NCBI GenBank assembly: GCA_023512255.1
Contig: JAILZY010000006.1
Span: forward strand, 14,273-78,272
Direction: 5' to 3'
From: a bacterium
GTDB taxonomy: Bacteria > SZUA-182 > DTGQ01
Length of the DNA: 64,000 nucleotides
The translations under genes were made by a program, and so were the position numbers. Under the pieces are notes generated by a model. That model made no database searches. It was not told where the DNA came from and worked only from the letters and a program-made list of their open reading frames with translations. Positions 9,187-56,944 of the stretch are shown one piece after another (the first letter of the stretch is position 1; each line of letters opens with the position of its first letter).

Positions 9187-9293
9187 CGCTCTTATTTATT
9201 AGCTACCATTGAGAGACATAATAAGAGCTAAGCCCCTTCGAGGGTTTATGGTTGTTCTGATATAGGGTTTATGGTGTCTGATATATAAGAGCG
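9187..9293. mobile_element. Family 1 MITE, copy A
   Basis: Non-coding 107-bp element beginning CGCTCTTATTTATTAGC and ending ATATAAGAGCG, so its ends are inverted repeats. Internally a block near 9240-9283 is tandemly duplicated (GGGTTTATGG ... GATATA twice). The flanking 8-mers TAATCTTT and AACCCTTT match at 5 of 8 positions, suggesting a decayed target duplication. It lies just after the cheX stop. Confidence 0.85.
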
Positions 9294-9294
9294 A

Positions 9295-9747
9295 ACCCTT
9301 TTTAAGCCTAACTTTCTTTTTCTTTTTTCTCTCCCTTAGGAGAGAATTTGATTGCTCAAAATAGAGTTAATAGAGTTAGAGAAAAAATAAAAAATCTTAT
9401 TGACTCATCAGCACTCTTAATGCTACTATTATAAAAATTACCTAACAAGGTATTTTCTCTTCGAAACGTCTATCTCTCAAAGCAATTCAAGGCGAATAGT
9501 AACTAACCATGGCTGTCTTGGGTATTTTACTCAAGGGGCGATGGTATTCTTCTGAAAGCAGAAAGTGTGGAAAGACAAGTGGTTTTGTGGTCTAATCTAT
9601 ATGGTTTTAATCTATAAGCAGTACCATGTATAAGCAGTACAATGAGGGAAAAGGGATAAGAGATAAGAGTTATCGCTACTGAGTTAGTCATTATGATTAT
9701 CTGGGTAGTCAGGATGATTATTTCAACAGCATCTCGATAGTAAGGAG
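9295..9747. other. Gene-free stretch before the PilZ gene
   Basis: About 450 bases of AT-rich spacer without a credible coding frame, tRNA or riboswitch. The only structure seen is a 16-bp tandem duplication (TATAAGCAGTACCATG at 9613-9628, repeated with one change at 9629-9644) and a looser GATTATYT repeat near 9690-9720. Confidence 0.6.
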
Positions 9748-10434
9748 ATGAGATCTGAACTAATGGCGGAAAGCATCTCTGCTCAAATTAAGGAAAGAGA
9801 GACAATTCTGGATGTTGGTCTGGTAATTTTTATTCAACCGAAAGGAAGCCCCAAAAACATTCGCTATAAAACCGCAGTGGTAGGCTGGAAGACCGATTAT
9901 CTTGTTATTATTGATATGCCCATATTAAATGGAACATATGTCAACCTGGTTGAGGGATCAAGCTGCATTGTTCGCTACATTCGCTGCGGTGATGCTTATG
10001 GATTTGAAACCAAAGTGATAAAAAATATCAATGACGCCAGACTCCCATTGATTTATCTTAGCTACCCAAAATCCGTGGAAAAGATTTCCCTTCGACAACA
10101 CCCCAGAATTCAAACCCGAATACCGGTACAGATTGAGGTAGCGGTTGAGGAGGAGAAAAGGCGGGAAGTGAGGGGGAATATCTTGGACTTGAGCGTCGGA
10201 GGCTGCCTTCTGGAGATTGAAGGCGCTGCTTCTCAAAAAGTTGACCTGGATATTAACCAGAGACTAAAGCTTGTTTTTACCCTCAAAAACAGTGCAGAGT
10301 GCGTTGTAGAGATTTTCGCCATGATCAAAAGGGTTCAGAAAACGCCGAATAATATCATGGCTGGTGCGCAATTTGTTGATTTATCTCCAGATAATTTTGA
10401 AAAAATTCGCCATTTCTGTGAATCACTGACTTAA
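9748..10434 (+). CDS. YcgR-like PilZ domain c-di-GMP receptor
   Basis: This 228-residue protein has an N-terminal YcgR-type beta domain (about residues 20-110) followed by a PilZ domain. The PilZ c-di-GMP signature is complete: LRQHPRIQTRIP gives the RxxxR and ILDLSVGGCLL the D/NxSxxG motif. The YcgR/FlgZ family slows or reorients the flagellar motor when c-di-GMP is high, which suits a neighbour of cheY and a flagellar cluster. Start choice is uncertain: ATG 9748 directly abuts AAGGAG (very short spacing), and ATG 9763 (MAESISAQ) is 15 bases from it. A role as an adhesion or alginate-type PilZ protein cannot be excluded. Confidence 0.85.
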   Translation: MRSELMAESISAQIKERETILDVGLVIFIQPKGSPKNIRYKTAVVGWKTDYLVIIDMPILNGTYVNLVEGSSCIVRYIRCGDAYGFETKVIKNINDARLPLIYLSYPKSVEKISLRQHPRIQTRIPVQIEVAVEEEKRREVRGNILDLSVGGCLLEIEGAASQKVDLDINQRLKLVFTLKNSAECVVEIFAMIKRVQKTPNNIMAGAQFVDLSPDNFEKIRHFCESLT

Positions 10435-10692
10435 AAGTGATGATAAGAGCCTACAGATTAAATAGCCTATCCAAGCCTCTGTCCGGGAGGATAATTCTGC
10501 TCTCACTTTGGGGGAGGTAGGGATGGTCGTTTATAAACTTCGCGATTTATGATAAAAATTGTGCTTACTTAGCTTGCTGAAATATATTTAGAGCACATTA
10601 ATTTTGTGTATTAATTACGTATTGAATTGATTATGGTGATGGTTGTCCACAGTGGCTAAAAACAGGCTTCTCAACCCCCAGCAGGAACTTGT

Positions 10693-12075
10693 ATGGCCAG
10701 AAAAAACGTAAAGAATGTTCTGTTAGTTGATGACGAAAAAAAGATTCACGAGGCTCTCGCTGAATATTTTGATAGCAAATCCTACCGACTAATCAGTGTC
10801 TTTGATGGATATGAGGCTCTGAAGAAAGTCGAGGAGGAGAAGGTTGATATAGTTCTTCTCGATATCAACCTGCCCGGCATGAGCGGTCTTGAGACCCTGC
10901 GAGAGCTTAAAAAGATCGACTCTCAGCTCATTGTCATCATCATAACCGGATACGGAACAGCAGACACAGCTATCGATGCCATGAAGTGCGGCTGCTACGA
11001 TTACGTTACCAAACCCTTCCGACTGATGGAGATCAAAAATGTAATCGAAGCTGCCCTAATTGACCGAGCCTACCATAAAAAAAATAGGATTACTACCTCT
11101 CTCCTTCCCTCTCAGGCCGGTAGCATACCGATTATTGGGCGAAGCAAAAAGATGCAGGAGGTGTATCGGCTCATTGCCAGAGTAATCAATACCGACTCAA
11201 CGGTCCTGATTCAGGGCGAGAGCGGCACTGGCAAGGATTTGGTAGCTCGAATTCTCCACTTTAATGGACCGCGGGCCAACAAACCATTTGTTACTGTCAA
11301 CTGTGCGGCTATTCCAGAAAATCTCCTCGAGAGCGAGCTCTTCGGACATGAAAAAGGGGTCTATACCGGCGCCCATATCGCCAGAAGAGGAAAATTCGAG
11401 CAGGCTGATGGAGGGACCATATTCCTAGATGAAATCGGCGATATGAGTCTAAATACTCAGGCTAAAATTCTGCGGGTCATGCAGAGTAAAACCTTTACCC
11501 GAATTGGAGGGGAGAAAAATATTTACGCCGATGTTCGGTTGATTGCCGCCACAAATAAAGAGCTACGAAAGGCTATGAAAGAGGGGCTCTTTCGTGAGGA
11601 CCTCTTCTATCGGCTCGATGTCCTTCCACTGACCCTGCCCTCGCTGAGAGAGAGGAAGGAGGACATTCCTGATCTGATCAACTATTTTATCGCCCGCTAC
11701 AATGAGAGTATTAACAAAAAGGTCTCCTTTGTATCACCTGAGGCTATGGATTTGCTTATGCGGCATGACTGGCCGGGAAATGTCCGAGAGCTGGAGCATG
11801 CTATCGAGCATGCTATTGTTCTGGCCAACGGATATGTGTTGCTGCCCGAACACCTGCCTGACAGCATTAAGGTTCAGGCTCAGAAAAACACCTCTATTTC
11901 TTTGGAACTTGGTCTTTCCCTTGAAGAAGTGGAAAAATTTTATATTCAAGAGACCCTGAAGATGGTGAGTGGAAATCAAACCAAGGCAGCTAATATCCTG
12001 CGTATTCATCGAAATACCCTGCATCGCCTGATGGAAAAGATGAACATCAAGCCTACGAAGGATGACTACGCCTAA
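10693..12075 (+). CDS. NtrC-family sigma-54 response regulator with altered GAFTGA loop
   Basis: At 460 residues it has the full NtrC plan: receiver (about 8-125, phospho-Asp in VLLDINLPGMSG), AAA+ domain with Walker A GESGTGKD and Walker B GGTIFLDEIGD, and a Fis-type HTH at the C-end (GNQTKAANILRIHRNTLHRLM). The sigma-54 contact loop, usually GAFTGA, reads GVYTGA (11356-11373). Location before a flagellar cluster suggests an FlrC/FlgR-like regulator of flagellar genes, but no cognate kinase is adjacent and I found no clear -24/-12 promoter nearby. The ATG is preceded by AGGAA. Complete, with no frameshift. Confidence 0.9.
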   Translation: MARKNVKNVLLVDDEKKIHEALAEYFDSKSYRLISVFDGYEALKKVEEEKVDIVLLDINLPGMSGLETLRELKKIDSQLIVIIITGYGTADTAIDAMKCGCYDYVTKPFRLMEIKNVIEAALIDRAYHKKNRITTSLLPSQAGSIPIIGRSKKMQEVYRLIARVINTDSTVLIQGESGTGKDLVARILHFNGPRANKPFVTVNCAAIPENLLESELFGHEKGVYTGAHIARRGKFEQADGGTIFLDEIGDMSLNTQAKILRVMQSKTFTRIGGEKNIYADVRLIAATNKELRKAMKEGLFREDLFYRLDVLPLTLPSLRERKEDIPDLINYFIARYNESINKKVSFVSPEAMDLLMRHDWPGNVRELEHAIEHAIVLANGYVLLPEHLPDSIKVQAQKNTSISLELGLSLEEVEKFYIQETLKMVSGNQTKAANILRIHRNTLHRLMEKMNIKPTKDDYA

Positions 12076-12114
12076 TCTGCCTTTTCTTTCTCCTTATTTC
12101 CTCTGCCGCTGAAA

Positions 12115-12200
12115 AGACTTTCAGCCTCGAAGAGAAGTTCAAGAGGGTGTCATGATCAGACTTTCAGCCTCGAAGAGAAGTTCAAGAGGGTGTCATGATC
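12115..12200. repeat. Perfect 43-bp tandem duplication
   Basis: Bases 12115-12157 and 12158-12200 are identical and head to tail. The unit contains CTCGAAGAGAAG and GTGTCATGATC. It lies 40 bases after the NtrC-type gene stop; the perfect identity implies a recent event. Confidence 0.95.
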
Positions 12201-12245
12201 AGCCGCCCCCTATTTCCCCAAAAAAACATTGCCTACCTACTACAG

Positions 12246-12356
12246 ATAAGTGCCCGACCATAAAAGGTTTATAACTTGAGATAATGACGTAGCAGTGGAC
12301 AAGTGAAATAATTATCCTGGCCAGTAGGTTATAACTCATTATGGTTGGTCGCTTAT
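12246..12356. mobile_element. Family 3 MITE-like element, intact copy
   Basis: A 111-bp element with imperfect ~31-bp terminal inverted repeats: the left begins ATAAGTGCCCGACCATAA and the right, on the other strand, ATAAGCGACCAACCATAA. Both ends and an internal TTATCCT block match the element at 58786-58904. No clear target duplication. No coding capacity. Confidence 0.65.
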
Positions 12357-12386
12357 GATTTTTATTTTCAGAAGCCTATCGAAAAC

Positions 12387-13346
12387 CTATCGAAGCCAGT
12401 AAGGTTTTTTTATTTCTTCAAAAGCATGGATCGCAGCGATAATACCCTCGGCGCAGGCAGTGGCTATCAGCTTTATCTCTCCGGTAACATCCCCGGCTGC
12501 AAATACTCCCTCGATATTGGTCTGAAGGTTTTGATCAACCCTGATTGAACCATCCTCCCTGACGATAAATCCGTTATTTTCAAGAAATCGTCTGATCGGC
12601 TCAAACCCTATGGCTATGAAAAGCTCATCAGCCTTTATACTCTCTGTTTTGCCTGTTTCAAGATCTACCACCTGGACGCCCTGAAGCAGGCCGGAAGCTT
12701 TTTTGGAAATTTTCACTGGGCTAGTGTGGTATAGCACTTTTACGCCCATCTGCTGGGCAAGCTTGACGCTGCTTTCCTTTGCCTTGGCATAAGCCTCCCT
12801 AACCAGAACGGTGGTTTTGGCTGCAACCTCGCTCAACTGGATAGCGGTGTCAAAGGCGTGGTCTCCACCACCCACAATCACTACCTCTTTTCCCTTGAAC
12901 CTGGATGGAACTTCCACTCGATAGTGGACATTGGGACCGGTATAATTCTTCAATATCTCAAGCTTTTTGGGAACATTATAGGATCCGGTGCAGAGGATAA
13001 CCCTTTTGGCCTGATACTCTCCCAGGCTGGTTTTTACCACGAGGGGTGGCGTTTCATCCTCTCTGCTGCTGGCTGATCTTTCAATTCTTACAACCTCTTC
13101 ATCGCAGCGGATCTGCGCTCCGGCATTCTGAGCCTGAATGACCAGCATCCTGCTCAGCTCTTTGCCCAAGATACCCACCGGAAAACCAGGGTGATCCCTG
13201 ATGATCTTGTCAGGATAGACAAGTGTAGGCAACCCACCCGGAAAGCTCTGCTTTTCGATTACCAGACTCTTTAACCCTCGGTGAGCCGTATTGGCCGCAG
13301 CCGTTAAACCAGCAGGCCCTGCACCCACTATAAGCACGTCATACAT
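12387..13346 (-). CDS. Thioredoxin reductase-fold flavoprotein without CxxC, likely ferredoxin-NADP reductase
   Basis: The 319-residue flavoprotein has an FAD loop VGAGPAGLTAA at the N-end, an NADPH-binding VGGGDHAFD (about residue 160) and the FAD C-terminal motif GVFAAGDVTG. The redox CxxC found in thioredoxin reductase near residue 135 is absent; that region reads CTGSYNVPKKLEIL. The segment FPGGLPTLVYPDKIIRDHPGF resembles the active face of YumC-type ferredoxin/flavodoxin-NADP reductases, so electron exchange between NADPH and a ferredoxin is the best guess. A cytosolic single gene with a family 1 MITE directly upstream (13365), which may displace or supply its promoter. Confidence 0.8.
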   Translation of the reverse strand: MYDVLIVGAGPAGLTAAANTAHRGLKSLVIEKQSFPGGLPTLVYPDKIIRDHPGFPVGILGKELSRMLVIQAQNAGAQIRCDEEVVRIERSASSREDETPPLVVKTSLGEYQAKRVILCTGSYNVPKKLEILKNYTGPNVHYRVEVPSRFKGKEVVIVGGGDHAFDTAIQLSEVAAKTTVLVREAYAKAKESSVKLAQQMGVKVLYHTSPVKISKKASGLLQGVQVVDLETGKTESIKADELFIAIGFEPIRRFLENNGFIVREDGSIRVDQNLQTNIEGVFAAGDVTGEIKLIATACAEGIIAAIHAFEEIKKPYWLR

Positions 13347-13364
13347 ACTGTGGATAATCCATTA

Positions 13365-13443
13365 CGCTCTCATATATCAGACACCATAAACCCTCAAAGG
13401 AGCTTAGCTCTTATTAGGGAATGGTAGCTAATAAATAAGAGCG
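13365..13443. mobile_element. Family 1 MITE, copy B (inverted, short form)
   Basis: A 79-bp member in reverse orientation to the other three. It lacks the ~24-bp internal duplication found in them, so it may be the older form. Perfect 8-bp direct repeats ATCCATTA flank it (13357-13364 and 13444-13451), the signature of transposition. Confidence 0.88.
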
Positions 13444-13592
13444 ATCCATTAATGTAATGGTTAACTTTATCTTAATGGTTAATTTTCAATAATTCCCATA
13501 ATTTTCCCATATTTCCGTAATTTTTCTGTTTCGCAATCCGTTTCAGCATAATCATAATCTATATATATTTCACCATAAATATATTTCACCAT

Positions 13593-13646
13593 AAGAAAAA
13601 GAAAGGCCGCGGCGAATGCTGTCTCGCACACGGCCTTCTTTTTCTT
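13593..13646 (-). terminator. Rho-independent-type terminator behind the repeat-protein gene
   Basis: Arms AAGAAAAAGAAAGGCCG (13593-13609) and CGGCCTTCTTTTTCTT (13631-13646) pair almost perfectly around a 21-base loop. On the minus strand the GC-rich GGCCG stem is followed by a T-rich tract, about 110 bases past the stop at 13756. The symmetric A/T flanks could make it bidirectional. Confidence 0.75.
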
Positions 13647-13755
13647 CGACAAAATTCAAAATTTCCCTGACTATCCCTACTGGCTATCCCTATCTTTCAG
13701 CTATCCTCATATGGACAGCTATCCTTAATATGGGATAGTTTTATGTAGGATACTT

Positions 13756-16700
13756 TTATGGCGTATACTTTCCACAGTTATAATCCTCAAGCTCCTTGAG
13801 CCACTTTTTGATCTGGGTCTTCTGGCCCTTGGTCAATCTTGGGTACCATTGCCGAGAGCTATAGACAGCCAGAAAAGAATCGATCTCGCTGAGTAGCTCT
13901 TCGAGACTAGCCGAGTCGTTTATTTGAACGCTAGCCTCTGCGCCGCTTGCCAGATTTAATTTGCAGGCAAGCACCTGAGCATAGAGATTAGCCAGGTTGC
14001 TCATCCTGCTAATCTGCTTCGGGGCAAGAATATCATAGACTTGATCGCAGGTGCTGATCTTGATACTCTGCTGGCCGCCTGGAGTCCCAAGCCAGATAGG
14101 CAGCAGGGATTTGAGATAGTCGGAGTCAGCATAAGCATCATCTTTCCATGAGGATAGGCTCCGTGGCCGAGGAGAGGGAGCGGCGGTTGCGGTTTGCGGT
14201 GCGCTGCTGGCCGCGGCTGTCAGGGTAATGGGCAGCGGCGTAGTTATGGCTGAGCAGCGATCCCAAGGAAGTTGATCCCACTGGCCGACACTGCCAGCGC
14301 AGCTTATCTCCTCTCCATTGGTTAGCCGCACAGCTTCAACCTTGGCGCTCAGACCTTCATTGGTGGTAACCTTGGCGCTGCCAGTATTGGTATCTTGACC
14401 ATTGTAGAAGATCGTCTGCGGTGCGCTGGTCGGCTCAAGCTTTTCTGCGGGGTTAAACTCTGTCCCAACCTTGATCAACAGGGTTCGACTCTCCAGAGCT
14501 GGGATGCTGCCCACCGTCCAGGTCAGCTTTTCCTTCTCAAATCCGCCGGGGCTTGGCGGAGGGGCAATGATTACATGGGTGGGGTCGCTGGTTTCAAAGG
14601 GATAGGCTTCATTGTTGAAGGTGTCGGTAACCACTACGCCAGTTAGGGGAGTATCATTGCAGTTTTCCACTGTGATCTCAACCAAAAAGTAGAACACCGG
14701 GCTACCTTGAGCTATCTCCTCTTTGACCGCGACCGGAATGATCCGGTCAGTGAGAAACAGGTTGTCCGAGGTGCGATAGGGGCCATTGATGGTCTTGGTC
14801 AGCTTCAGGCAGGGCTTTGCTGGCGACACTCCGAAGTAGCAGCTTGGATCTTTGGCTGTGAGCTCATTGCCAAGCGGATCAAGAGCAGTAGCAGTGCCAG
14901 TATTCTTATACTGTCCGGCCTGGGCTGTGCCAGTGGCCGTGCAGGTCATGGATTCACCTTGATCTAGGGTAGTTTTTGGACAGGTGATGAGACCTAGCTT
15001 ATCATCAGATACAGTAATGCCGGTAAGTTTAGTATTGCCGGTATTTTTAACTTCATAGGTCCAAGTAATCTGATTACCCACCGGAATTTCAGGACATGGA
15101 GTGGTATTGGCATCCTGCCCATTGGTGAGTTTCTTGAGGCTGAGGCCGCTGGCTACGCCAAAGTAGCAGCTTGGATCTTCAGCCGTGAGCTCATTGCCGG
15201 ATGGATCAAGAGCAGTAGCTGTGCCGTTATTCTTATACTGTCCGGCCTGGGCTATGCCTGTGGCCGTGCAGATCATGGACTCACCCACCCCTAGGCTGTC
15301 ATTCGGGCAGTCGATTTCGCCTAGCTTATCATCGACTACCTTAATGTCGGAGAGGGTAGTATTGCCAGTATTTTTAACTTCATAGGTCCAGGTAACCTGA
15401 TCGCCAACTTGGATCAGTGGACCAGGGGAAGTATTGGCATCCTGCCCATTGGTGAGTTTCTTGAAGCTGAGGCCGCTGGCTACACCGAAATAATAGCTGG
15501 TGTCGGTGAAGATAAGCTTTTCCCCTCCTGGGCCTGTGGCTGTAGCGGTGCCGGTATTTTTATACTGTCCGGCCTGGGCTGTGCCTTCAGCTTCGCAGGT
15601 CATAGATTCGTTCGGCTCCAGGGTGGTTTTTGGGCAGGTAACCGTAGACCCCTCACTGTCCGTCACGGTTACATTCGATATGGTGACATTGCTGGTATTG
15701 GTAACCTCATATTTCCAGTAAACCGGATTGCCAACCGGAATCGAGGGGCCGGGTGGTGAATCAACATGCTGGTCATTGGTAAACTTCTTGATAGTAATTC
15801 CACAGGTGCAGCCAAAGTAATGGCTGGGATCTGAGTCCATAAACTCTCTCCCAAGCGTATCCAAGGCCTTGACGATCCCTACATTTTTATACTGGCCAGC
15901 TGTGGCTGTACCAGTGGCTTCGCAGGTCATGTACTCACCCACCGCTAGGCTATTCTTCGGACAGGCGATGGGACCTAGTTTATCATCATATACAGTAATG
16001 CCAGAGAGCGGGGTATTACCAGTATTGGTAACTTTATAGCTCCAGGTAACCAGACCACCAACTGGTATTGAGGGGCCGGGCGGTGAGTTAGCATCCTCAC
16101 CATTGGTGCTCTTCTTGATGCTGACCCCGGCACTGACTCCAAAGTAATGGCTAGGGTCAGTGTCGATAAGCTGATTGCCGGTTGAGTCTTTGGCGGTAAC
16201 CGTAGCCAGGTTGGCATACTGGCCGAGCGCGGCTGTACCAGAGGCTTCGCAGGTCATGGACTGACCAGGACCTAGAGTATTCTTCGGGCAGGTGATTAGG
16301 CCTAGCTTATCATCAGATACGGTAATGCCAGTGAGAGTATCATCACCAGTGTTAGTAACTACGTAGCGCCAAGTAACCAGCCCACCAACGGGTATTGAGG
16401 GGCCGGGTGGTGAGTCAGCATCCTGGCCATTGGTGCTTTTCTTGATGTTGATCCCACTGGTGTAGCCGAAATAGTGACTAGGATCTTCGGCCGTGAGCTG
16501 ATTTCCGAGAATATCTGTGGCCGTAGCTGTAGCTATATTTTTATACTGGCCAGCCCGGGCTATACCGCTGGCTGTACAGGTCATGGACTGACCAGGATCT
16601 AGCATAGTAGCAGGGCAGGTGATGGCGCCTATCTGATTGTCGACTACTTTGATATTACTGATCGGGATATTGCCAGTATTAGTTATCCGATAGGTCCAAA

Positions 16701-22483: not shown

Positions 22484-22557
22484 TTGCCTGTTTTGATCTG
22501 TCTGAATAATATTTATTCGAAGAATATGGAGGAAAGTTATACCTTACTAAAAAGGAG

Positions 22558-22578: not shown

Positions 22579-22670
22579 GTAAAAATATTCACTTAATAGA
22601 AGTAAAATATTTACAGAATTACCATCATCTGTAGAGATCACAATATCAGTTGTAGAGATCAATATCGGTC

Positions 22671-43812: not shown

Positions 43813-43815
43813 GCC

Positions 43816-44253: not shown

Positions 44254-44319
44254 ACCTTCACGTTTTATAAGAATAAATAAGGAAAAAAATTTAATAAAAA
44301 CCGCTTGAGGACAAAAAGA

Positions 44320-45972: not shown

Positions 45973-46038
45973 GGTTTTTTGAGATTTACCTTTTTGAGTA
46001 CCATAATTACCATCTGAATTTACAAGGAGATAAGAAAC

Positions 46039-46704: not shown

Positions 46705-46724
46705 TCTTAGAGACAGTGATCTTA
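46697..46724. repeat. 13-bp duplication over the flgD stop codon
   Basis: GACAGTGATCTTA occurs at 46697-46709, where it contains the flgD stop TGA, and again at 46712-46724. Confidence 0.85.
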
Positions 46725-46791
46725 CAAGCAATTAAGCAAGCGGTTAAGCTCAAAGTGACCCTTCGTTAAGAAGCTTTAAGGAGGAAGTGAT

Positions 46792-47988
46792 ATGCTCGGT
46801 TGCCTATCAACAGGAGTCAGCGGTTTAAGCGCCAGTAACAGCGATATGTCCATCATCGCCAACAACATCGCCAATGTCAATACCCCTGGCTATAAAGCCA
46901 GGCGGGCGGAATTTGCCGATCTTCTCTCTCAACAGACCGGAAATATGGAAATTGGAACCGGAGTAGCGATCAGCAATGTCTCTTCGGTCTTAAGTCAGGG
47001 GCCACTGACCGCCACCAGCAATATATACGATCTGGCTATCGACGGGGCCGGCTTCTTCGTGGTGAAGGACGATCGCGGCCTATTTTATACTAGGGCCGGC
47101 CAATTCCATAAGGATAAAGAGGGCAAACTAGTTACTCCCAAAGGCCAGGTAGTTCAGGGCTGGATGCTCCAAGAAGGAGGAGGAGGTATGGTCGGCTCTC
47201 CCTCGGATATTGTCATTTCCAATGTCTCGATTCCCCCAAAGGCTACCGAAAATGTTACTATGAGCGTAAATCTTGATTCCAACACGCCGCTTTCGGCTGG
47301 AGCAGCTTTTGATCCGCAAGATCCTTCAAGCACTTCCAGCTACTCCACCTCTTTGTCATTTTTTGATTCTCTCGGCAACAGGCATGATCTCACCTTCTAC
47401 TTCCGCAAGCAGGCTGAAAATCAATGGGAATGGCATGCCTTCGAAGGCGGAACTTCGCTTGAGCAAAGCGGCACTTTGAGCTTTACTGCTGAGGGAGTTT
47501 TGGATAGTACCACGCCAGGCACCGGCAAGGTTACTTTCGGCAGGCAGGTGATTAATGTCGATTTTAGGGGATCGACCCAATTTGCCGCTGACTCCTCCAC
47601 CACTGCTCTTTCCCAGGATGGCTATGAGGCAGGCTCTTTAAGCCGGATCTCGATCACTAGGGAGGGGATCATTCAAGGGACCTTCACCAATGGCTACTCC
47701 AAGGACATAGCCCGCATCGCTCTGGCCGATTTTAATAATCCCGATGGTCTGGTGCATATGGGGAATAACCTCTATCAGGCTAGTGCTGAGTCAGGCCAGC
47801 CAATCATTAATCCACCAGGGACAGGAGGGATGGGAAACATTGCCGCCTATAGTCTGGAAAATTCGAATGTTGACCTTGCGGCTGAATTCGTGAAGATGAT
47901 TGTTACCCAGCGAGCCTTCCAGGCCAATGCCCGAACTATCACTACGGCTGATCAACTGCTGGCCGAGCTGGTGAGCCTGAAACGGTAG
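46792..47988 (+). CDS. flgE: Flagellar hook protein FlgE
   Basis: The 398-residue protein begins MLGCLSTGVSGLSASNSDMS and has NNIANVNTPGYKARRAEFADLL, the rod/hook N-signature, the D1/D2 hook domain (SYSTSLSFFDSLGNRHDLTFYF) and the C-end ENSNVDLAAEFVKMIVTQRAFQANARTITTADQLL. An AAGGAGG site precedes it. It is the subunit of the hook. Confidence 0.95.
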   Translation: MLGCLSTGVSGLSASNSDMSIIANNIANVNTPGYKARRAEFADLLSQQTGNMEIGTGVAISNVSSVLSQGPLTATSNIYDLAIDGAGFFVVKDDRGLFYTRAGQFHKDKEGKLVTPKGQVVQGWMLQEGGGGMVGSPSDIVISNVSIPPKATENVTMSVNLDSNTPLSAGAAFDPQDPSSTSSYSTSLSFFDSLGNRHDLTFYFRKQAENQWEWHAFEGGTSLEQSGTLSFTAEGVLDSTTPGTGKVTFGRQVINVDFRGSTQFAADSSTTALSQDGYEAGSLSRISITREGIIQGTFTNGYSKDIARIALADFNNPDGLVHMGNNLYQASAESGQPIINPPGTGGMGNIAAYSLENSNVDLAAEFVKMIVTQRAFQANARTITTADQLLAELVSLKR

Positions 47989-48066
47989 CCGCTATTCACC
48001 CTACTTATCCGCAAAGAGCCAAGCCCATGAATAATCAGGCATTAACAATCAGGAGAGAGCAAGCTT

Positions 48067-48759
48067 ATGAATATCGGGATGTATCGGGCCGTAGCTGGCT
48101 GCATTGTTCAACAAGAGCGACTTGATGCCGCTAGCATGAACATGGCCAATAGCAGCACTATCGGCTACAAAGCCATTCGCCTTAGCGTGGGATTCAACAA
48201 CGATGTCGTCCAGGTGGATAGAAAAAGCATCGACTTTACCGAGGGGGGAAGGCAGGATACCAGGAATAAGTTAGATCTTGCCCTCGACGGCGATGGTTTT
48301 TTCGTTGTCCAGACCAGCCGAGGGCCTGCCTACACTAGAAAAGGGAATTTTTCCCTAAATGCCCAAGGTGAGCTGGTTACTCAGGAAGGAATGCCGGTTC
48401 TCGGACAAAATGGACCGGTGAAGATCACAGGCCATGATATCCACATCAGCGCTGACGGAACGATTCGGGCTGATGGCCGCAGGGTGGATAAATTGCGTTT
48501 GGCTACTTTTCGCAGGCCCTATCCCTTTGATACTAGAAGCGGGAGCCTGTTCTTTCCAGATCCGGCGACAGGAGCACAGGAAGAGCCAGCCAAGGGAGCA
48601 GTGGTCCAGCAGGGCCAAATTGAGCTCTCTAATGTCAACCTGATGAAGGAGATGGTTCGGCTGATCGAGATCTCGACCAGTTATGAGTCATGCCAGAAGG
48701 TTATTCAGACTGTGGATGAGATGGACCAAAAGATAATCAATGAAACCAATAAGATGTAA
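48067..48759 (+). CDS. flgF: Flagellar distal-rod-type protein FlgF
   Basis: This 230-residue member of the FlgF/FlgG family has SMNMANSSTIGYKA in place of the usual [12 protein letters not shown], LDLALDGDGFFVVQTSRGPAYTRKGNFSLN and the C-end VQQGQIELSNVNLMKEMVRLIEISTSYESCQKVIQTVDEM. Length and position just before flgG fit FlgF, the proximal part of the distal rod. It is separated from flgG by 230 bases containing a family 1 MITE. Confidence 0.88.
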   Translation: MNIGMYRAVAGCIVQQERLDAASMNMANSSTIGYKAIRLSVGFNNDVVQVDRKSIDFTEGGRQDTRNKLDLALDGDGFFVVQTSRGPAYTRKGNFSLNAQGELVTQEGMPVLGQNGPVKITGHDIHISADGTIRADGRRVDKLRLATFRRPYPFDTRSGSLFFPDPATGAQEEPAKGAVVQQGQIELSNVNLMKEMVRLIEISTSYESCQKVIQTVDEMDQKIINETNKM

Positions 48760-48848
48760 TCATAAGATGAGCTCTATCAGAGCTTGAGGTGAAGGGCAAA
48801 AAAAATATTATGACTGACTGAAAAACTGGCAGATTTCGAATAAATAGT

Positions 48849-48961
48849 CGCTCTTATTTATTAGCTACCATTAAAGAGACATAACCCTAATAAGAGCTAA
48901 GCCCCTTTCTAGGGTTTATGGTTGTTCTAATATAGGGTTTATGGTGTCTGATATAAGAGCG
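48849..48961. mobile_element. Family 1 MITE, copy C, inside the flagellar operon
   Basis: A 113-bp element (CGCTCTTATTTATTAGC ... GATATAAGAGCG) between flgF and flgG. It is flanked by perfect 8-bp direct repeats TAAATAGT (48841-48848 and 48962-48969), so it inserted at this site. Same orientation as the genes; the internal ~23-bp duplication is present. Confidence 0.92.
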
Positions 48962-48989
48962 TAAATAGTACAAGGAAGGAGCATAAGAT

Positions 48990-49778
48990 ATGATTCGCTC
49001 TCTATGGATCTCAGCTTCCGGCATGGAAGCCCAAACACTCAATATTGATGTCATTTCCAATAATCTAGCTAATGTCAACACTACGGGTTTTAAGCGTAGC
49101 CGAGCTGATTTTCAAGATCTTCTCTATCAAACTCTTCGACCTGCCGGAGCCTCTTCTTCTTTGGGTACCCAGGTCCCTACCGGCATCGAGCTAGGGCAGG
49201 GAGCCCGAGCAGTGGCTGTTCAAAAGCTCTTCCTTCAAGGGGATTACCAGAAAACAGAGAATGAGCTTGATTTGGCTATCGAAGGAGATGGCTTTTTCCA
49301 GGTCATCAAACCAAACGGCGAGATGGCCTATACCCGCTCAGGCGCCTTGAAATTGGACAGCCAGGGCAGGCTGGTAACCTCTGACGGATTCCCAATCGCC
49401 CCTGAGATCACCATTCCTGCTGATACGGAGAAAATCAACATCGGCTCAGATGGTCTGGTTTCAGTTAAACTGGCTGGCCAGGAGAGCTTTACTGAGCTTG
49501 GGAGCATCGAGCTGGTGAATTTTCCAAACCCATCCGGCCTGAGCAGTATTGGCCGCAATCTCTATGAGAGAACAGGTGCCTCGGGCGATCCGGTTGCCGG
49601 CACCCCTGGCCAGGATGGCTTAGGGACCATTGCTCAAGGGTATCTTGAGATGTCGAACGTCAGCATCATGGAGGAGATGGTCAATATGATCATTGCCCAG
49701 AGGGCCTATGAGGTCAATTCCAAGGCCATGCAGACCGCAGATGAAATGATGCGCCTGGCTAGCAATGTGAAGAGATGA
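48990..49778 (+). CDS. flgG: Flagellar distal rod protein FlgG
   Basis: This 262-residue protein is the standard length. It starts [25 protein letters not shown], has [23 protein letters not shown] and ends [36 protein letters not shown], all canonical. AAGGAG precedes the ATG, close behind the MITE. Its stop overlaps the flgA start (ATGATGA). Confidence 0.96.
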
Positions 49779-50860
49779 TGAAGACCGGTAGGGCAAAAAA
49801 AATCAATAGCGGATCAGGCAAGAGGCTGGCCGCGGCCAGCAGCCTGTTTTTGCTGATTCTGCTGCTTGCGCTTTGGCCAGAATATGGTCGAGCAGTGCAG
49901 GCAGATGAGCCGCCTGCGGACAAAAGCCGCGTTGCAGATAAAAATTGGGCTACAGCCGTAATCCTCAAGGATCGGTGGGCCGCAGAGCGTGATGATGAGG
50001 TTCTGCTTGGCGATATCGCCCGGCTTCAGGGGAGTGATGCAGCCCTGATCGAGGAGTTAAGCCGCATTCCGGTGGGAAGACCACCCCGGGCGGGCACCGC
50101 GGCCACTGTCGTTACCCTTCAGGGGATCAGGCACCTGCTCAGGAGATCTCTTCCGACAGATATTTTTGTCAAAATTGCTTTTTCCGGCTCTGATCGCTGT
50201 CTGATTGAGCGAGCCTATCGGGAGATTGAGGCCGCCGAGATAGAGCGGCTTTTCAGGGAGTGGTTTTCGGAGCGCTTTTCCAGGCAGGAATTTGAACTTG
50301 AGCGGGTCAGGGTTTTTCTCACTCAGCCGGTGAAAGTGCCAGATGGAGGAGAGATCAACTATGAGGTTCATAACCCTGAGCCTCCAAGCAGACAGGAGGA
50401 AACTTTCCTCTTCAGGATCTCCCATAGGGAAGATCTGATCAGACAAATCAGGATTCTGGCCACAATCGGCTATCGGGCCACCATGCTGGTAGCTGCAAAA
50501 GATCTGGCCAAAGGCGAGGTGATCAGCCCGGCTAAGGTGATCGAAAAAGCCGTAATCCTCCGCAATCGTCCCGATCCTGAGCAAGCGGTTGATCCTAGCC
50601 GAATCATAGGCCTGGTTTGCCGCCAGCCAATCCGAGCGGGAAGTGAACTAACCCTCAAGATGCTCGATCAGCCCATTTTGATCAGAAAGGGAGCGATCAT
50701 CAAAATGGTGCTCGAGAGCAATAACCTTCGAATTATCGGCCTTGGGAGGGCCAGGGCTGACGGGCGGCAGGGGGAGATCATCCGGGCTGAAAACCTGAGT
50801 TCGCAGGGGGATGTGTATGGAAAAGTCGTTAGTGAAAATCAGATTTTGGTTAGTTTTTAA
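49775..50860 (+). CDS. flgA: P-ring assembly chaperone FlgA
   Basis: At 361 residues this is longer than E. coli FlgA, with an N-terminal signal ([18 protein letters not shown]) and an extra N-terminal domain ([27 protein letters not shown]). The C-terminal SAF/ChapFlgA domain is clear: [45 protein letters not shown] and [15 protein letters not shown]. It assists FlgI assembly in the periplasm. It overlaps flgH by 44 bases. Confidence 0.88.
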
Positions 50861-51599
50861 GGCTATCTGCGGCCTGTGGCTAGCTTGCATCCTAGGGATG
50901 TCTGCCGGGGGATGTAGCGGAATCATCAAAAAGTCAGGCCAGGGGCTGGAGAATGGTGCAGCCTTGGATTTGTCCCAGCAGGAGGATGATTCGGCAGCTT
51001 CTAAAAAGTGCACCCCCTCGGCAACATCGGCAAGCAGCAATGGCTCCCTCTGGAGCGATTCATCGTCCGCAGGGTATCTATTTGTCGATCCAAGGGCTCG
51101 GGCCGTAGGAGATATCGTTACCGTAAACATTGTAGAGCGGGCCAGTGCCAGCGGCAACGCCAGCACCAAAGCAGGAAGAAAATCATCAGTGTCGGCAGAT
51201 GTTACCTCGCTCCTTGGACTTGAAAAATCCGCAGCCAGCCGAAACCCCAATCTTGACCCAACTAACCTGCTGAGCGCATCAGCCAGCAACAGCTTTGATG
51301 GCTCAGGAGAAATTAGCCGAAGCGGCAGGGTCAGCGCTACCCTCAGCGCACGGGTCATTCGGGTTCTGCCTAACCGTAATTTGCTCATCCGAGGCACCAG
51401 ACAAGTAACTATCAATAACGAGCAGCAGCTTATTGTCATCCAAGGCATTATCCGACCCGAAGATATCGCCCCGGATAATACCGTATCCTCAACCTCTATC
51501 GCCGATGCCCAAATAGCCTATACAGGCAGGGGCGTGATGAGCGAAAAACAGCATCCAGGCTGGCTGAGTAGGATCATTGATCTGGTTTGGCCGTTTTAA
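50817..51599 (+). CDS. flgH: Flagellar L-ring lipoprotein FlgH
   Basis: Start at ATG 50817 ([11 protein letters not shown]), six bases after GGGGG; an ATG at 50811 is also in frame. About 260 residues. The signal ends in a lipobox-like GMSAGGC. The FlgH core is GSLWSDSSSAGYLFVDPRARAVGDIVTVNIVERA ... RNLLIRGTRQVTINNEQQLIVIQGIIRPEDIAPDNTVSSTSIADAQIAYTGRG. It forms the outer-membrane bushing, showing the cell is diderm. Confidence 0.93.
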   Translation: MEKSLVKIRFWLVFKAICGLWLACILGMSAGGCSGIIKKSGQGLENGAALDLSQQEDDSAASKKCTPSATSASSNGSLWSDSSSAGYLFVDPRARAVGDIVTVNIVERASASGNASTKAGRKSSVSADVTSLLGLEKSAASRNPNLDPTNLLSASASNSFDGSGEISRSGRVSATLSARVIRVLPNRNLLIRGTRQVTINNEQQLIVIQGIIRPEDIAPDNTVSSTSIADAQIAYTGRGVMSEKQHPGWLSRIIDLVWPF

Positions 51600-51610
51600 A
51601 AACCCATCCT

Positions 51611-51647
51611 CCCAAAACTTTAATATCTTAAATATTAAAATTTTGGG
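51611..51647. other. Strong intergenic hairpin between flgH and flgI
   Basis: CCCAAAACTTTAATAT (51611-51626) pairs with ATATTAAAATTTTGGG (51632-51647), 15 of 16 bp, around a 5-base loop. AACCC before and GGGTT after (about 51601-51605 and 51652-51656) can extend the stem. No T-run follows, so a processing, stability or attenuation element is more likely than a terminator. Confidence 0.6.
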
Positions 51648-51675
51648 AAAAGGGTTACAAATAAGGAGCATGACC

Positions 51676-52794
51676 ATGAGAATTGGCACAATCGCATCAA
51701 CTCTCCTGTGCCCACTCATCATGAGCCTGGCCGGAGTCTGGCTCCCTGAATGTTGCCAGGCAAGTCGGATCAAAGACTTGGTCCATATCCAGGGCGTCAG
51801 GGAAAACCAGTTGATCGGCTATGGTCTGATCGTCGGTCTAAAGGGAACCGGAGACAAAGGGGGAGGCAAGTTCACCATCAATTCGCTGGCCAATATGCTG
51901 AGAAAGCTCGGAGTATCGGTTGATCCTGCTGAACTCAAGGTTAAAAATGTAGCCGCAGTCATTGTTACCGCTACCCTGCCTCCCTTTGCCAGACGGGGAG
52001 AGCGGATCGATGTAACTATCTCATCCCTAGGGGATGCTAGTAGTCTTCAGGGCGGCACACTGCTTTTGACCCCGCTTAAGGGAGCAGATGATCAGGTCTA
52101 TGCCGTAGCTCAAGGACCTCTGTCAGTGGGTGGATTTGCCGCCGAAGGTGGAGCCGCAGGAGTGCAGAAAAATCACCCCACTGTAGCCAGAATCCCACAG
52201 GGAGCCTTGATCGAGCGGGAGGTCCCTTTTAGCCTCAATCCCCAAAGCCCCTTGATAATGACTCTTGATAGAGCAGATTTTGTAACCGCGGCCAGAATTG
52301 CTAAGAAAATTAATGACACCCTAAATATGGACCTTGCCCATGCTCAGGATCCCCGAAGCATCAGCCTGACTATTCCCTCTCAGTTTCAAAAAAATCTGGT
52401 GGAACTTGTGGCCACTATTCAGGAGATTGAGGTCGAGCCAGATACCCAGGCTCGGGTAGTGATCAATGAGCGCACCGGCACCGTAGTGGTCGGCGAGAAT
52501 GTCCGAATTTCCAGCGTGGCCATATCACACGGCAATCTGAGCATTGAAATTAAGGAAACTCAGCAGGTCTCTCAGCCCCCTCCCCTCTCGCCAGGAGAAA
52601 CCCAAAAGGTTCCTCAAACAGATATCACTATCCATGAGGAGCGGGGAAATTTGATCCCTCTGCCAGCCAACACTACGGTTGGCGAGCTGGTCAGGGCACT
52701 GAATGCCATTGGGGTAAGCCCAAGAGACCTGATTGCCATCCTGCAATCCATCAGGGCCGCTGGAGCACTCCATGCAGAGTTGGAAATCATATAA
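51676..52794 (+). CDS. flgI: Flagellar P-ring protein FlgI
   Basis: About 372 residues from ATG 51676 (MRIGTIASTLLCPLIMS), seven bases after AAGGAG. Signal peptide, then canonical FlgI: RIKDLVHIQGVRENQLIGYGLIVGLKGTGD, FTINSLANMLRKLGV, VKNVAAVIVTATLPPFARRGERIDVTISSLGDA and the C-end TTVGELVRALNAIGVSPRDLIAILQSIRAAGALHAELEI. It forms the periplasmic P-ring. Confidence 0.95.
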   Translation: MRIGTIASTLLCPLIMSLAGVWLPECCQASRIKDLVHIQGVRENQLIGYGLIVGLKGTGDKGGGKFTINSLANMLRKLGVSVDPAELKVKNVAAVIVTATLPPFARRGERIDVTISSLGDASSLQGGTLLLTPLKGADDQVYAVAQGPLSVGGFAAEGGAAGVQKNHPTVARIPQGALIEREVPFSLNPQSPLIMTLDRADFVTAARIAKKINDTLNMDLAHAQDPRSISLTIPSQFQKNLVELVATIQEIEVEPDTQARVVINERTGTVVVGENVRISSVAISHGNLSIEIKETQQVSQPPPLSPGETQKVPQTDITIHEERGNLIPLPANTTVGELVRALNAIGVSPRDLIAILQSIRAAGALHAELEII

Positions 52795-52830
52795 CCCAAG
52801 ATTGGAGATAACTAACCCAAGATTGGAGAT
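52792..52830. repeat. 18-bp duplication beginning at the flgI stop codon
   Basis: TAACCCAAGATTGGAGAT occurs at 52792-52809, with its first three bases being the flgI stop, and perfectly again at 52813-52830, just before flgJ. Confidence 0.88.
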
Positions 52831-52838
52831 GACAAGCT

Positions 52839-53183
52839 ATGAACCCGATCGAAAACTTTAGCCTAACAAGATTCTGGCCGCCGCAGACACCCACCTGCTC
52901 GCTCGCCGCCGCAAGCCCCAGCGAGACCAAAGTGCGGCATTCGCAGCCGACACGATTTGAACTTGAGCAGGTTTGCACTGAATTTGCCTCCATCCTTTTT
53001 CAGACCCTCCTAAAAAGCATGTATTCCACCATCCCCAAAACATCGCTCTGCCCACAACTTGAGGCTAAGAATCTGGTTAACTCCTTCCTTGATCAGGGAC
53101 TTGTCCGATTCATGGCCCTGCAAAATGCAGCCGGCTTGAAAGACCTACTTATGGCTCAGATTACCAAGGCAGCCAAACCTTAA
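52839..53183 (+). CDS. flgJ: Rod-binding protein, FlgJ N-terminal domain only
   Basis: This 114-residue protein matches the rod-binding half of FlgJ: FELEQVCTEFASILFQTLLKSMYSTIPKT and AKNLVNSFLDQGLVRFMALQNAAGLKDLLM. There is no muramidase domain, so peptidoglycan must be opened by another enzyme. It caps and guides rod assembly. It is the last gene of the flagellar cluster; what follows is ~290 bases of extremely AT-rich spacer. Confidence 0.85.
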   Translation: MNPIENFSLTRFWPPQTPTCSLAAASPSETKVRHSQPTRFELEQVCTEFASILFQTLLKSMYSTIPKTSLCPQLEAKNLVNSFLDQGLVRFMALQNAAGLKDLLMAQITKAAKP

Positions 53184-53328
53184 CTCTTTCTTCATTTAGC
53201 AAGATAGCCGCAAGATCTTATCCTTCCAAAATACAATATCTTCCGATCTATTAAATCATTTTGAAATTTAATAAATAATTAAAATAATATTAATTTAATA
53301 ATTACCAAAATTTAATAACTATATTTAC

Positions 53329-53358
53329 TTGACTTTTTAAGACTAAATAAATTAAAAT
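53329..53358 (+). promoter_or_regulatory. Possible promoter for the lipoprotein gene
   Basis: TTGACT (53329-53334), an 18-base spacer and TAAAAT (53353-53358) lie 115 bases before the chosen start, within the AT-rich spacer where chance matches are frequent. Confidence 0.3.
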
Positions 53359-53472
53359 AATATTAAGATAAAATTAGATCAATTTACTTAAATAAAAAAT
53401 TATATTAACATATTGATATATATTTTTATTGATGAATTTTTATTCATGAATATTGACAAAGGAGTATATATC

Positions 53473-54846
53473 GTGGTGCGAAAGACTAAAACTACTGTAT
53501 TGATAAGGACCGCTGTATTGATCATACTATGTGTAGGCTTATGGTTTCTTCATGGATGCAAGAGCGAAGAGGATCAAGATGTAAGCAAAAAAAGTGATTA
53601 TCATGATATTGGCACAGGCGATAATACAGGCAATAATAATAGCTTGTCTCAAGCCAATAATGTCCCGCCCGCGGTCCATATAGATCGGCCTCTTCAGGGC
53701 AGCACCTTCACAGAAGGCGATTCTGCTGCCCTCATAACCGGGATTGGTAAAGACCAAGAAGATGGGCCCCTGGCCGACAATTCACTTCAGTGGTGGGTAT
53801 CAAAATGGTGGAGCTCAAATCAATGGTCGGGATCAGATGTAGATGACGATGGCAGAAACCCTCTGGCTTGGGGCCCATCCTTTTCTCCAGGCAATCTATC
53901 ATCTGGTCAATACATCATTACCCTGATAGCAGCGGATAGTGCTGGGTTAAGCTCAAGTGATTCGATCAATATCAGGATCTGCTCAAAATGCGATGCTGAC
54001 TCCCAGCAGCCCCAAGGCCAAAACCAAAAAGCCAATGTTGTGGTGCACGGGATAATAAACCGGCTCATGGATGATCAAGGCTACCTTGTGCTCCTTGGTG
54101 AGCTGAAAAACATTGGCTGCCGGGATGCGACCTTTTGCAAAATAACCTTTACCCTGCTGGATAGCTCGCTTCAACCTATTGGAGACCCTGTATTCGCCTA
54201 TGTACATGGTACAAACAAAACCATAACCCAACAGGATGTTGAAAATAATGCTATTCTTGAGCCAGGGGTTTGCGGTGGGTTTTACCTGTCTACGAATGTG
54301 CCCGATGAAAGTGTTTCATTATATGAGTATAAGATTAGCTATCGAGGAGATGAGACCTCTTCTCCTGGTGCCGATTTGGTGGTCGATTACCCGATAGAGC
54401 CTGGTGCCAATGAGACAGATGGTTTTCTGAAGCTGTCAGGTAGAGTAAGGAACAGGGGAAGCAAAACAGCCCTGTTTAGCCAGATAACTTTTATCTTAAA
54501 GGATCGCAATGATATGGTTATTGACGTAATCAGTGCGGATATTCAAGGCTCATTTGTTTATTTGCCGGATATTTATGCTTATACCGATACAGCCGTGCTG
54601 GCTGGAAAAACAGGAGTCTTTACCGCCCAGTCAATAAGGCTCTATCCCAATGAAGTGGACTTTGATCGAAGCTACTACACCCTAGCCTGGCGAGACTGCC
54701 AAAAAACAATATCTTCTAGAGCCTCACGGCAGCGAGGAGGTGGCTTGAGCGCTTTTGCCAAAACTTCCACCGCCCTCTGCCACGATCCTGGCCAAGCATG
54801 TCGAGAGCGAGACAAAAAAATTGATGAGTTGGCAGAAAAAATGTGA
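53473..54846 (+). CDS. Predicted lipoprotein with FxLYD-like domains
   Basis: Start at GTG 53473 (VVRKTKTTVLIRT), eight bases after AAAGGAG; upstream in-frame codons would add a non-signal extension. The N-end is a lipoprotein signal with lipobox FLHGC. After a Ser/Asn linker comes an Ig-like region (PPAVHIDRPLQGSTFTEGD ... DSAGLSSSDSINIRI) and two beta-rich FxLYD-like domains (LVLLGELKNIGCRDATFCKITFTLLD and FLKLSGRVRNRGSKTALFSQITFILKD). The C-end is basic/acidic (CHDPGQACRERDKKIDELAEKM). Likely an outer-membrane or periplasmic surface lipoprotein; no specific function is known. Confidence 0.7.
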   Translation: MVRKTKTTVLIRTAVLIILCVGLWFLHGCKSEEDQDVSKKSDYHDIGTGDNTGNNNSLSQANNVPPAVHIDRPLQGSTFTEGDSAALITGIGKDQEDGPLADNSLQWWVSKWWSSNQWSGSDVDDDGRNPLAWGPSFSPGNLSSGQYIITLIAADSAGLSSSDSINIRICSKCDADSQQPQGQNQKANVVVHGIINRLMDDQGYLVLLGELKNIGCRDATFCKITFTLLDSSLQPIGDPVFAYVHGTNKTITQQDVENNAILEPGVCGGFYLSTNVPDESVSLYEYKISYRGDETSSPGADLVVDYPIEPGANETDGFLKLSGRVRNRGSKTALFSQITFILKDRNDMVIDVISADIQGSFVYLPDIYAYTDTAVLAGKTGVFTAQSIRLYPNEVDFDRSYYTLAWRDCQKTISSRASRQRGGGLSAFAKTSTALCHDPGQACRERDKKIDELAEKM

Positions 54847-54920
54847 AAATTGAGCCAAAAGCACTAAAAAGCACTAAGGCTAGACCGTCTGCCCTGGCTA
54901 GGGAAGCAAGCCCTAAAGGC

Positions 54921-55703
54921 TTAAGCAGCCGCTCTCGCGTAAATCTTGCCGCCAATCAGGATCAGGCTGGCCGTCGCGGTCAAGAGGATGGCAAAATCGG
55001 CTCCCAGCCTTGAGGGTGAGGCAGGCATTTTTCCAGCCAGCATCAGGATGCGAAGCGCATCCACCTCGTAGGTCAGTGGATTGATTTTGGCTATTGCCCT
55101 AAGCCAGCGGGGCATCATCGAAATTGGATAGATGGCGTTACTGGCAAAAAAAAGCGGCATGGTCAGAATCTGGCCTATGCCCATAAAGCGCTCACGGGTT
55201 TTAACTAGACAGGCAATAATCAGGGAGAAGGTTGAGAAAAAGGCTGCGCCGAGGATGACGATGATCACGACACCCAAGAGGGCCAGCGGTGTCCAGTTTA
55301 TTTTCACCCCCAGGATGAAAGCCAGAAGATAAATGATCACCGCCTGGGCCAGGCTGCGCACACCGGCAGCTAGCGCTTTTCCCAGCACCAGGGCCGGCCG
55401 TGGGGTAGGAGAGGCCAAAAATTTGTGAATGATCCCTAAATCTCTCTCCCAGATAATGGCGATGCCGTAGAAAATAGAGATAAAAAGGACGCTTTGAGCC
55501 AGAATACCAGGGGTCATGAAGTCAAGATAGCACAAGCCTGGCGTAGGGATAACCCGACTATGGGTGAATACCTGTCCGAATACCAAAAGCCACAATAGCG
55601 GCTGAACAGCTCGCATGATAAGCTCGGTTGGATCATGGAGGATTTTCCTGACCTCAAAGCCAGCTATGGTGAATGTCTTGCTCAGAAACCGAATGATCGG
55701 CAT
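54921..55703 (-). CDS. ABC-2 type export permease (DrrB-like)
   Basis: 260 residues from the internal ATG at 55703 (MPIIRFLSKTFTIAGFEVRK), the usual permease length; a longer in-frame start at 55847 overlaps the ATPase gene by 101 bases and is less likely. Six hydrophobic helices and the ABC-2 signature region (MPLFFASNAIYPISMMPRWLRAIAKINPLTYEVDALR). Together with the ATPase it should export a small amphiphile or polysaccharide; no biosynthetic genes indicate the substrate. Confidence 0.87.
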   Translation of the reverse strand: MPIIRFLSKTFTIAGFEVRKILHDPTELIMRAVQPLLWLLVFGQVFTHSRVIPTPGLCYLDFMTPGILAQSVLFISIFYGIAIIWERDLGIIHKFLASPTPRPALVLGKALAAGVRSLAQAVIIYLLAFILGVKINWTPLALLGVVIIVILGAAFFSTFSLIIACLVKTRERFMGIGQILTMPLFFASNAIYPISMMPRWLRAIAKINPLTYEVDALRILMLAGKMPASPSRLGADFAILLTATASLILIGGKIYARAAA

Positions 55704-55746
55704 GATGAGTGGTCCGGTCCAAGAAAGCCCTGGCCCCAAGAAATTA

Positions 55747-56547
55747 CTAGCCAAGTCGCTTGGCAGTGCGCCGTGTTCTTGAGGTTTCACGGTAGCCGCC
55801 TCCTCCTGATTCCAATGCCTGACCCGTATAGTGGGCAAAGACATCATTTAGGGTGGCTCCATCCGAGCCGATTGAGGCCTTAAGTTTAGCCGGACTGCCA
55901 AGAGCAACCATCCGGCCAAGGTGCATTACAGCCACTCGATTGCACAGAGCATCGGCCTCTTCCAGATAGTGAGTGGTCAGGAAAATTGTTGTGCCATAGG
56001 TAACCCGAAGCTTTTCAATGTGCTTCCAGACCGCGGTCCGGGCAAGAGGATCAAGCCCTACGGTCGGCTCATCCAGAAAGAGCAACCGAGGCCGGTGCAG
56101 CAAAGACTGGGCAATCTCAAGCCGTCTGATCATTCCTCCTGAGTAAGTGCGCACTAACTTGTTAGCCGCATCGGATAAGCCCATGAACGAGAGAGCCTCA
56201 TCCACCCTGCTCTTTTGCTCTGAGCGGGGCAGATCATAGAGCTTGGCAAAAATGAGTAGATTCTCATAGCCGGTCAGGGAACCATCAGCAGATAAAACCT
56301 GCGGTACATAGCCGATCAGCCGCCGCACCTCAGAAGATTTGCGTATAAGGTCAAAGCCAGCTACTGTGGCTGTGCCCGATGTTGGTGAAAGCAGGGTGGT
56401 CAGCATCTTGATGGCCGTACTCTTGCCCGCCCCATTTGGGCCAAGCAGCCCAAATACCTCACCAGCCTTTACGCAGATATTAAGACCATCTACCGCTATC
56501 ATAGGGCCGAAGCGGCGAGTGAGTTTTTTTGTCTCCAGAATGATCAT
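55747..56547 (-). CDS. ABC-2 type export ATP-binding protein (DrrA-like)
   Basis: This 266-residue ATPase has Walker A GPNGAGKSTAIKML, Q-loop (GYVPQ), signature YSGGMIRRLEIAQSLLHRP, Walker B LLFLDEPTVGLDP and the switch His (LTTHYLEEAD). These are the features of DrrA/CcmA-type exporters paired with an ABC-2 permease. The permease follows on the same strand. Complete. Confidence 0.93.
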   Translation of the reverse strand: MIILETKKLTRRFGPMIAVDGLNICVKAGEVFGLLGPNGAGKSTAIKMLTTLLSPTSGTATVAGFDLIRKSSEVRRLIGYVPQVLSADGSLTGYENLLIFAKLYDLPRSEQKSRVDEALSFMGLSDAANKLVRTYSGGMIRRLEIAQSLLHRPRLLFLDEPTVGLDPLARTAVWKHIEKLRVTYGTTIFLTTHYLEEADALCNRVAVMHLGRMVALGSPAKLKASIGSDGATLNDVFAHYTGQALESGGGGYRETSRTRRTAKRLG

Positions 56548-56561
56548 GATTTTTCCCCAGG

Positions 56562-56703
56562 GAAATGTCCGCGCCTTGTGTGAATTATCCCTATGCCGTG
56601 TCCATCTAACCCACAGAATTACAGAAATGTCCGCTCTTTGGGTGGATTATCCCCTTAGGTTGATTATCCCATTTGAAATATCCGCACCTTGTGCTGATTG
56701 TCC
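56562..56703. repeat. Three degenerate ~29-bp direct repeats upstream of the ABC genes
   Basis: Units of the form GAAATGTCCGC-CTTGTG-GATTATCCC start near 56562, 56624 and 56675, spaced 51-62 bases. They lie upstream (on the minus strand) of the ABC ATPase start, where they could act as regulator sites or be decayed duplications. Confidence 0.55.
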
Positions 56704-56831
56704 AGTTTGTATTGCCGAGGCTGGCGCCCGTGTTCTAAGCCATTATTGGCACATGGGGTTAAGTTTATAACAGAATGTCTTTTCGGTCAATTTTTGAGAT
56801 TATCTTTACCACCTCTTATTGAAAAGATATT

Positions 56832-56944
56832 CGCTCTTATTTATTAGCTACCATTGAGAGACATAACCCTAATAAGAGCTAAGCTCCTTCGAGGGTTTAT
56901 AGTTGTTCTGATATAGGGTTTATGGTGTCTGATATATAAGAGCG
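56832..56944. mobile_element. Family 1 MITE, copy D
   Basis: A 113-bp element closely similar to copies A and C. It is bracketed by perfect 8-bp direct repeats AAGATATT (56824-56831 and 56945-56952). It sits just beyond the 3' end of the glycine-rich protein gene. Confidence 0.92.

Follow-up and report, generated by a model that had tools for sequence, protein, structure and literature searches.

A MITE family with 8-bp target duplications, very probably moved in trans by an IS1595-type transposase, in a sparsely sampled bacterial lineage

Type II MITEs share only their ends with an insertion sequence (IS), as set out in a review that also describes the MITEs Chunjie and MITEAba12 (PMC10969869). 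The name IS1595 does not occur in that review, and it is to this family that we tie the MITE reported here. ISApl4, a member of the IS1595 family (IS1016 subgroup), has 8-bp AT-rich duplications (PMC12561309). Our elements resemble prokaryotic type II MITEs (PMC10969869) in being shorter than 500 bp, in their inverted ends, intergenic positions and size variants, in target duplications that decay with age, and in a similarity to an IS that is confined to the ends. They differ from the described ones in sequence, which is unrelated to anything in the collections searched apart from the single public contig discussed below. The family is new, and the kind of element is already known and well understood.

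The window, by which we mean the whole stretch of 64,000 nucleotides analysed, lies on contig C69 of G000, a draft genome of 3.83 Mb assembled into 172 contigs. It contains four copies of the element, with the following features:

9187-9293, plus strand: MITE copy 1, 107 bp, ends CGCTCTTAT/ATAAGAGCG
13357-13364, unstranded: target duplication ATCCATTA, left of copy 2, exact 8-bp direct repeat
13365-13443, minus strand: MITE copy 2, 79 bp, with an internal deletion and one IS-like end, CGCTCTCAT
13444-13451, unstranded: target duplication ATCCATTA, right of copy 2, exact 8-bp direct repeat
48841-48848, unstranded: target duplication TAAATAGT, left of copy 3, exact 8-bp direct repeat
48849-48961, plus strand: MITE copy 3, 113 bp, with flgF on one side and flgG on the other
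48962-48969, unstranded: target duplication TAAATAGT, right of copy 3, exact 8-bp direct repeat
56824-56831, unstranded: target duplication AAGATATT, left of copy 4, exact 8-bp direct repeat
56832-56944, plus strand: MITE copy 4, 113 bp, with 98% identity to the genome-wide consensus
56945-56952, unstranded: target duplication AAGATATT, right of copy 4, exact 8-bp direct repeat
56953-56968, unstranded: stub after copy 4, made of the last 7 bases of an element end, AAGAGCG (56953-56959), followed by another AAGATATT (56961-56968)

All four copies are intergenic. Copies 1, 3 and 4 have their left end first on the plus strand and copy 2 lies on the minus strand; the ends are CGCTCTTAT and ATAAGAGCG throughout, with the exception of the one end of copy 2. 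A preliminary description of this DNA, made from its letters alone, had placed four copies at these positions and perfect 8-bp direct repeats around three of them, and we recovered both, the repeats being exact for copies 2, 3 and 4. The flanks of copy 1 (TAATCTTT and AACCCTTT) mismatch at three of eight positions, and its target duplication is decayed or absent. Elsewhere in the window, a 746-aa open frame (5847-8087) holds BioA at residues 310-740, with ~300 residues ahead of it, and is possibly a BioD-BioA fusion.

A search of the full genome with the element raised the number of distinct copies, collected from targeted stretches, to at least 69 (72 element rows, less three that gave another possible right end for a copy already counted); the earlier count of four was low because only one window had been visible. 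With a pattern requiring perfect 9-bp ends, 52 elements were retrieved, 96-126 bp in length; the genome has 167 occurrences of the 16-bp end motif. The copies are short (mostly 102-121 bp, most commonly 113 bp), lack coding capacity and carry 23-bp imperfect terminal inverted repeats starting CGCTCTTAT. Their consensus is CGCTCTTATTTATTAGCTACCATTGAGAGACATAACCCTAATAAGAGCTAAGCCCCTTCGAGGGTTTATGGTTGTTCTGATATAGGGTTTATGGTGTCTGATATATAAGAGCG, from which they diverge by a median of 2.7% in substitutions, with nearly invariant ends and a more variable interior.

Listing the flanks of all copies revealed an exact 8-bp repeat around 45 of the 69, and one with at most one mismatch around 58. When left flanks were paired with right flanks at random (2000 trials), exact repeats numbered 0.9 on average (maximum 6), and those with no more than one mismatch 1.7. 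Hardly any exact repeat had another length (6 bp once, 9 bp once, none of 5, 7, 10 or 11 bp), so that the target duplication has a fixed length of 8 bp at many independent sites. These duplications are 82% A+T and take the form A......T; their first position is A in 50 of 59 rows and their eighth is T in 49 of 59. Insertions were concentrated between genes: 58 of the 62 testable sites fell outside open frames of at least 120 codons and 4 inside, compared with 82% of random window positions falling inside such frames.

Sites devoid of the element exist both in relatives and within the genome itself, which supports insertion. The flgF-flgG gap that houses copy 3 is empty in the same-genus genome G001 (FlgG 91% identical) and in the same-family genome G003 (FlgG 83% identical). 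Within a dispersed host repeat, a MITE sits at AATCAAAA in two repeat copies (L034 and L058) and this site is empty in two others (L083 and L039); L039 in turn holds a MITE at a different site of the same repeat, empty in L034 and L058. These observations bear on the idea that the copies are a structured regulatory RNA or a protein-binding repeat at fixed sites (BOX/REP-like) rather than mobile DNA. Nearly all copies are indeed intergenic, and the single strand has a somewhat more stable fold than shuffled sequences (z from -2.3 to -4.1), a property explained by the inverted repeats. However, the 8-bp duplications and the empty sites lead us to reject an RNA family, the copies vary in length and orientation, and the element has no match in Rfam, all of which makes a non-mobile repeat extremely improbable. 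The reading of the preliminary description, a family of MITEs that duplicate 8 bp of their target, is upheld. Of the two observations it had named as fatal, neither materialized: 8-bp repeats do flank other genomic copies, and a conserved RNA family occupying the same sites in relatives is contradicted by the empty site there and by the lack of an Rfam match.

The MITE family has a candidate partner. The whole genome contains one match to the IS1595-family transposase domain (PF12762), on contig C83, where the gene belongs to an IS of 1,097 bp bounded by CGCTCTCATATATCAGACACCA on the right, directly at the transposase stop codon, and by CGCTCTCAATTTATTAGACGCCAT on the left, ~60 bp upstream of the transposase start and on the opposite strand. 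This is the kind of full-length IS with such ends that the preliminary description had proposed to look for. The encoded protein combines a zinc ribbon (PF12760, 28.8 bits against a cut-off of 25.4) with a DDE domain (PF12762, 86.5 bits, cut-off 27) and matches NF033547 (133.5 bits, cut-off 75), which makes it an IS1595-type transposase. Its frame is interrupted by one in-frame TAG stop, read through for the profile searches only. The flanks of the IS, TTAAAATT and ATTTTTAT, differ and contain no matching 8-bp pair; together with the TAG, this means that the C83 copy cannot be read as a clean recent insertion. A second copy is only partly seen, because contig C97 ends within it; over 212 bp, it is 99% identical to the first. 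The sequence TTAAAATT, the right flank of the C83 IS, recurs in reverse complement on contig C101 as the flank of a different left end (L105 1341-1348, L137 1491-1500), which suggests that IS copies have recombined or that a contig has been misjoined.

In transposase family (NF033547, PF12762 and the zinc ribbon PF12760) and in having terminal inverted repeats, this IS is like ISApl4, whose 8-bp AT-rich target duplications (PMC12561309) are of the same kind as those seen at the MITE copies. The ends differ, being GGGGCTGTACTAGA in ISApl4 and CGCTCTCA.. in the C83 IS, and the MITE differs in being without a gene. The tip of the IS1016 subgroup as found in ISApl4, GGGGCTGT, is absent from the C83 IS, where the tip reads CGCTCTCA.

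The ends of the MITE match those of this autonomous-type element in a side-specific manner. The right ends of MITE and IS are identical at 21 of 22 bases, and both elements have the same asymmetry between left and right, TTTATTAG on the left and ATATATCAGACACCA on the right, the left ends of both reading TTTATTAG at the place where the right ends read ATATATCAG. Two details count against a partnership with this IS: the left ends agree less well than the right ones (about 18 of 23 bases), and position 7 of the tip is T in the MITE (CGCTCTTAT) and C in the IS. Since only the ends are shared, we class the MITE as type II, and for the same reason the C83 IS is no more than a candidate ancestor.

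Other transposases were also considered as drivers. ISL3 (PF01610) and IS240 transposases had no match in the genome (G000), and the three DDE_Tnp_1 matches all lack such ends; that on contig C29, next to a MITE, has different ends of its own and is a mere neighbour. Single element ends lacking a partner (on C3, C22 and C158) have no adjoining transposase, and the end pattern did not occur in the viral contigs scanned. The earlier observation that the window contains no transposase agrees with our genome-wide searches for four families (IS240, ISL3, IS1595 and DDE_Tnp_1), none of which gave a match on contig C69. From the families put forward in the preliminary description (IS1595, ISL3, IS66 and IS256), IS1595 is thus favoured by an IS with matching ends and ISL3 drops out. 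It could still be argued that another transposase making 8-bp duplications (IS66, IS256, ISL3 or other) drives the MITE and is missing from the draft, the IS1595 ends being similar through shared end ancestry only. The visible IS1595 copy does have a stop codon and shares nothing beyond its ends with the MITE, and a multicopy IS could be missing from an assembly of 172 contigs in which several contig ends lie inside MITE copies. Nevertheless, the side-specific match, the lack of any ISL3 or IS240 match, and the ends of a same-genus ISL3 element (GGCTCAACCAT.. instead of CGCTCT..) render this scenario very unlikely.

On these sequence comparisons, we consider it very probable that the copies form a type II MITE family whose movement depends on an IS1595-type transposase supplied in trans and produces 8-bp duplications. 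The sequence itself establishes the elements, their duplications and empty sites, the side-specific end match with the IS and the family to which its transposase belongs. We infer mobilization by this transposase, its likely source being the 1,097-bp IS on C83, of which C97 carries the second, partial copy, and transposition would presumably follow the usual DDE route. In such a scheme, the enzyme, supplied in trans, would recognize the 23-bp imperfect terminal repeats of a non-autonomous, non-coding DNA element of ~113 bp, cut the element out or copy it, and join it to staggered cuts made 8 bp apart at AT-rich, mostly intergenic targets of the form A......T; repair of the resulting gaps would then leave the 8-bp duplications.

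Whether the family still moves is a separate matter. It might be mobile in origin and now inert, with a transposase that is dead in this lineage and copies that decay or spread together with their surroundings. The TAG in the visible transposase and the copies without recognizable duplications point in this direction, as do four MITEs of 110-119 bp (L024, L027, L064 and L096) located at one and the same site of another dispersed repeat (AAAAACAAT), where either the repeat carried the MITE along as it spread or insertions favour this site. On the other hand, the low median divergence of 2.7% and the 45 exact duplications suggest fairly recent movement, and the second IS copy, truncated by the end of C97, may or may not have an open frame. 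We regard present inertness as a serious possibility, at somewhat less than even chances; it bears on present activity alone and does not conflict with past movement in trans by an IS1595-type enzyme.

Several copies are accompanied by stubs of the element end (7-11 bases), set off from the element by the 8-bp duplication and in some cases followed by that duplication again. They occur at the following loci:

window 56945-56968: beside copy 4
L059, 1547-1669: stub locus
L009, 1501-1640: stub locus
L044, 905-1005: stub locus

These stubs give the impression that one target received two insertions, the second of which was later lost. They might record an abortive or repeated reaction that the IS1595-type transposase reproducibly carries out at a target already used, an explanation that we consider unlikely; if true, they would constitute a mechanistic signature apparently undescribed for the IS1595 family. 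Elements with the same ends and a different interior (GCTCACCAGAATAACAACAG beside one end) are found in the same genome (G000) at C32:6950-7052 (L087 1424-1526) and C158:30444 (L101 1501-1543) and are a second, rarer non-autonomous family. The MITE flanks also hold, at many loci, other dispersed repeat families of ~60-130 bp with 75-95% identity (for example, the upstream flank of L009, L081 1240-1356 and L056 1710-1850), small intergenic repeats being abundant in this genome.

Beyond this genome, neither the 113-bp element nor its end motif had a match in 96 others, including the same-genus G001. The latter has larger non-autonomous elements with similar ends, such as:

L138:1502-1898: non-autonomous element of G001, 397 bp, ends CGCTCTCATTTATTAGACACCAT / CGCTCCCATTTATCAGTCACCAT

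Like the MITE, this element has 8-bp flanks (ATTCTCGT/ATTCTTGT, one mismatch), whereas its interior is different and longer; its ends and flanks count in favour of the explanation given above. A public genome collection contained one full MITE copy, beside a 16S gene on a contig labelled Paenibacillus (JAILZT010000041.1, L067). The label is doubtful, since the 16S of this contig, which bears an rRNA operon, is 94% identical to that of G001; it probably reflects a binning or assembly error (a misbinned or chimeric contig). Plasmid-borne relatives of the transposase are less than 60% identical to it, the best, at about 40%, being from a Thiothrix plasmid, where the ends begin GGCTCAATATG. The tips read GGCTCAATA in the nearest plasmid relative and GCTCTTCTG in a haloarchaeal relative, and the ends of the two plasmid relatives checked contain GCTC.

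The MITE family named here is new, comes from a sparsely sampled bacterial lineage and is tied, with high probability, to an IS1595-family transposase; no new principle is required. The repeats help to explain some of the breaks in the draft genome assembly, and the copies lend themselves as clean material for testing which targets (A......T, 82% AT) an IS1595-type enzyme prefers.
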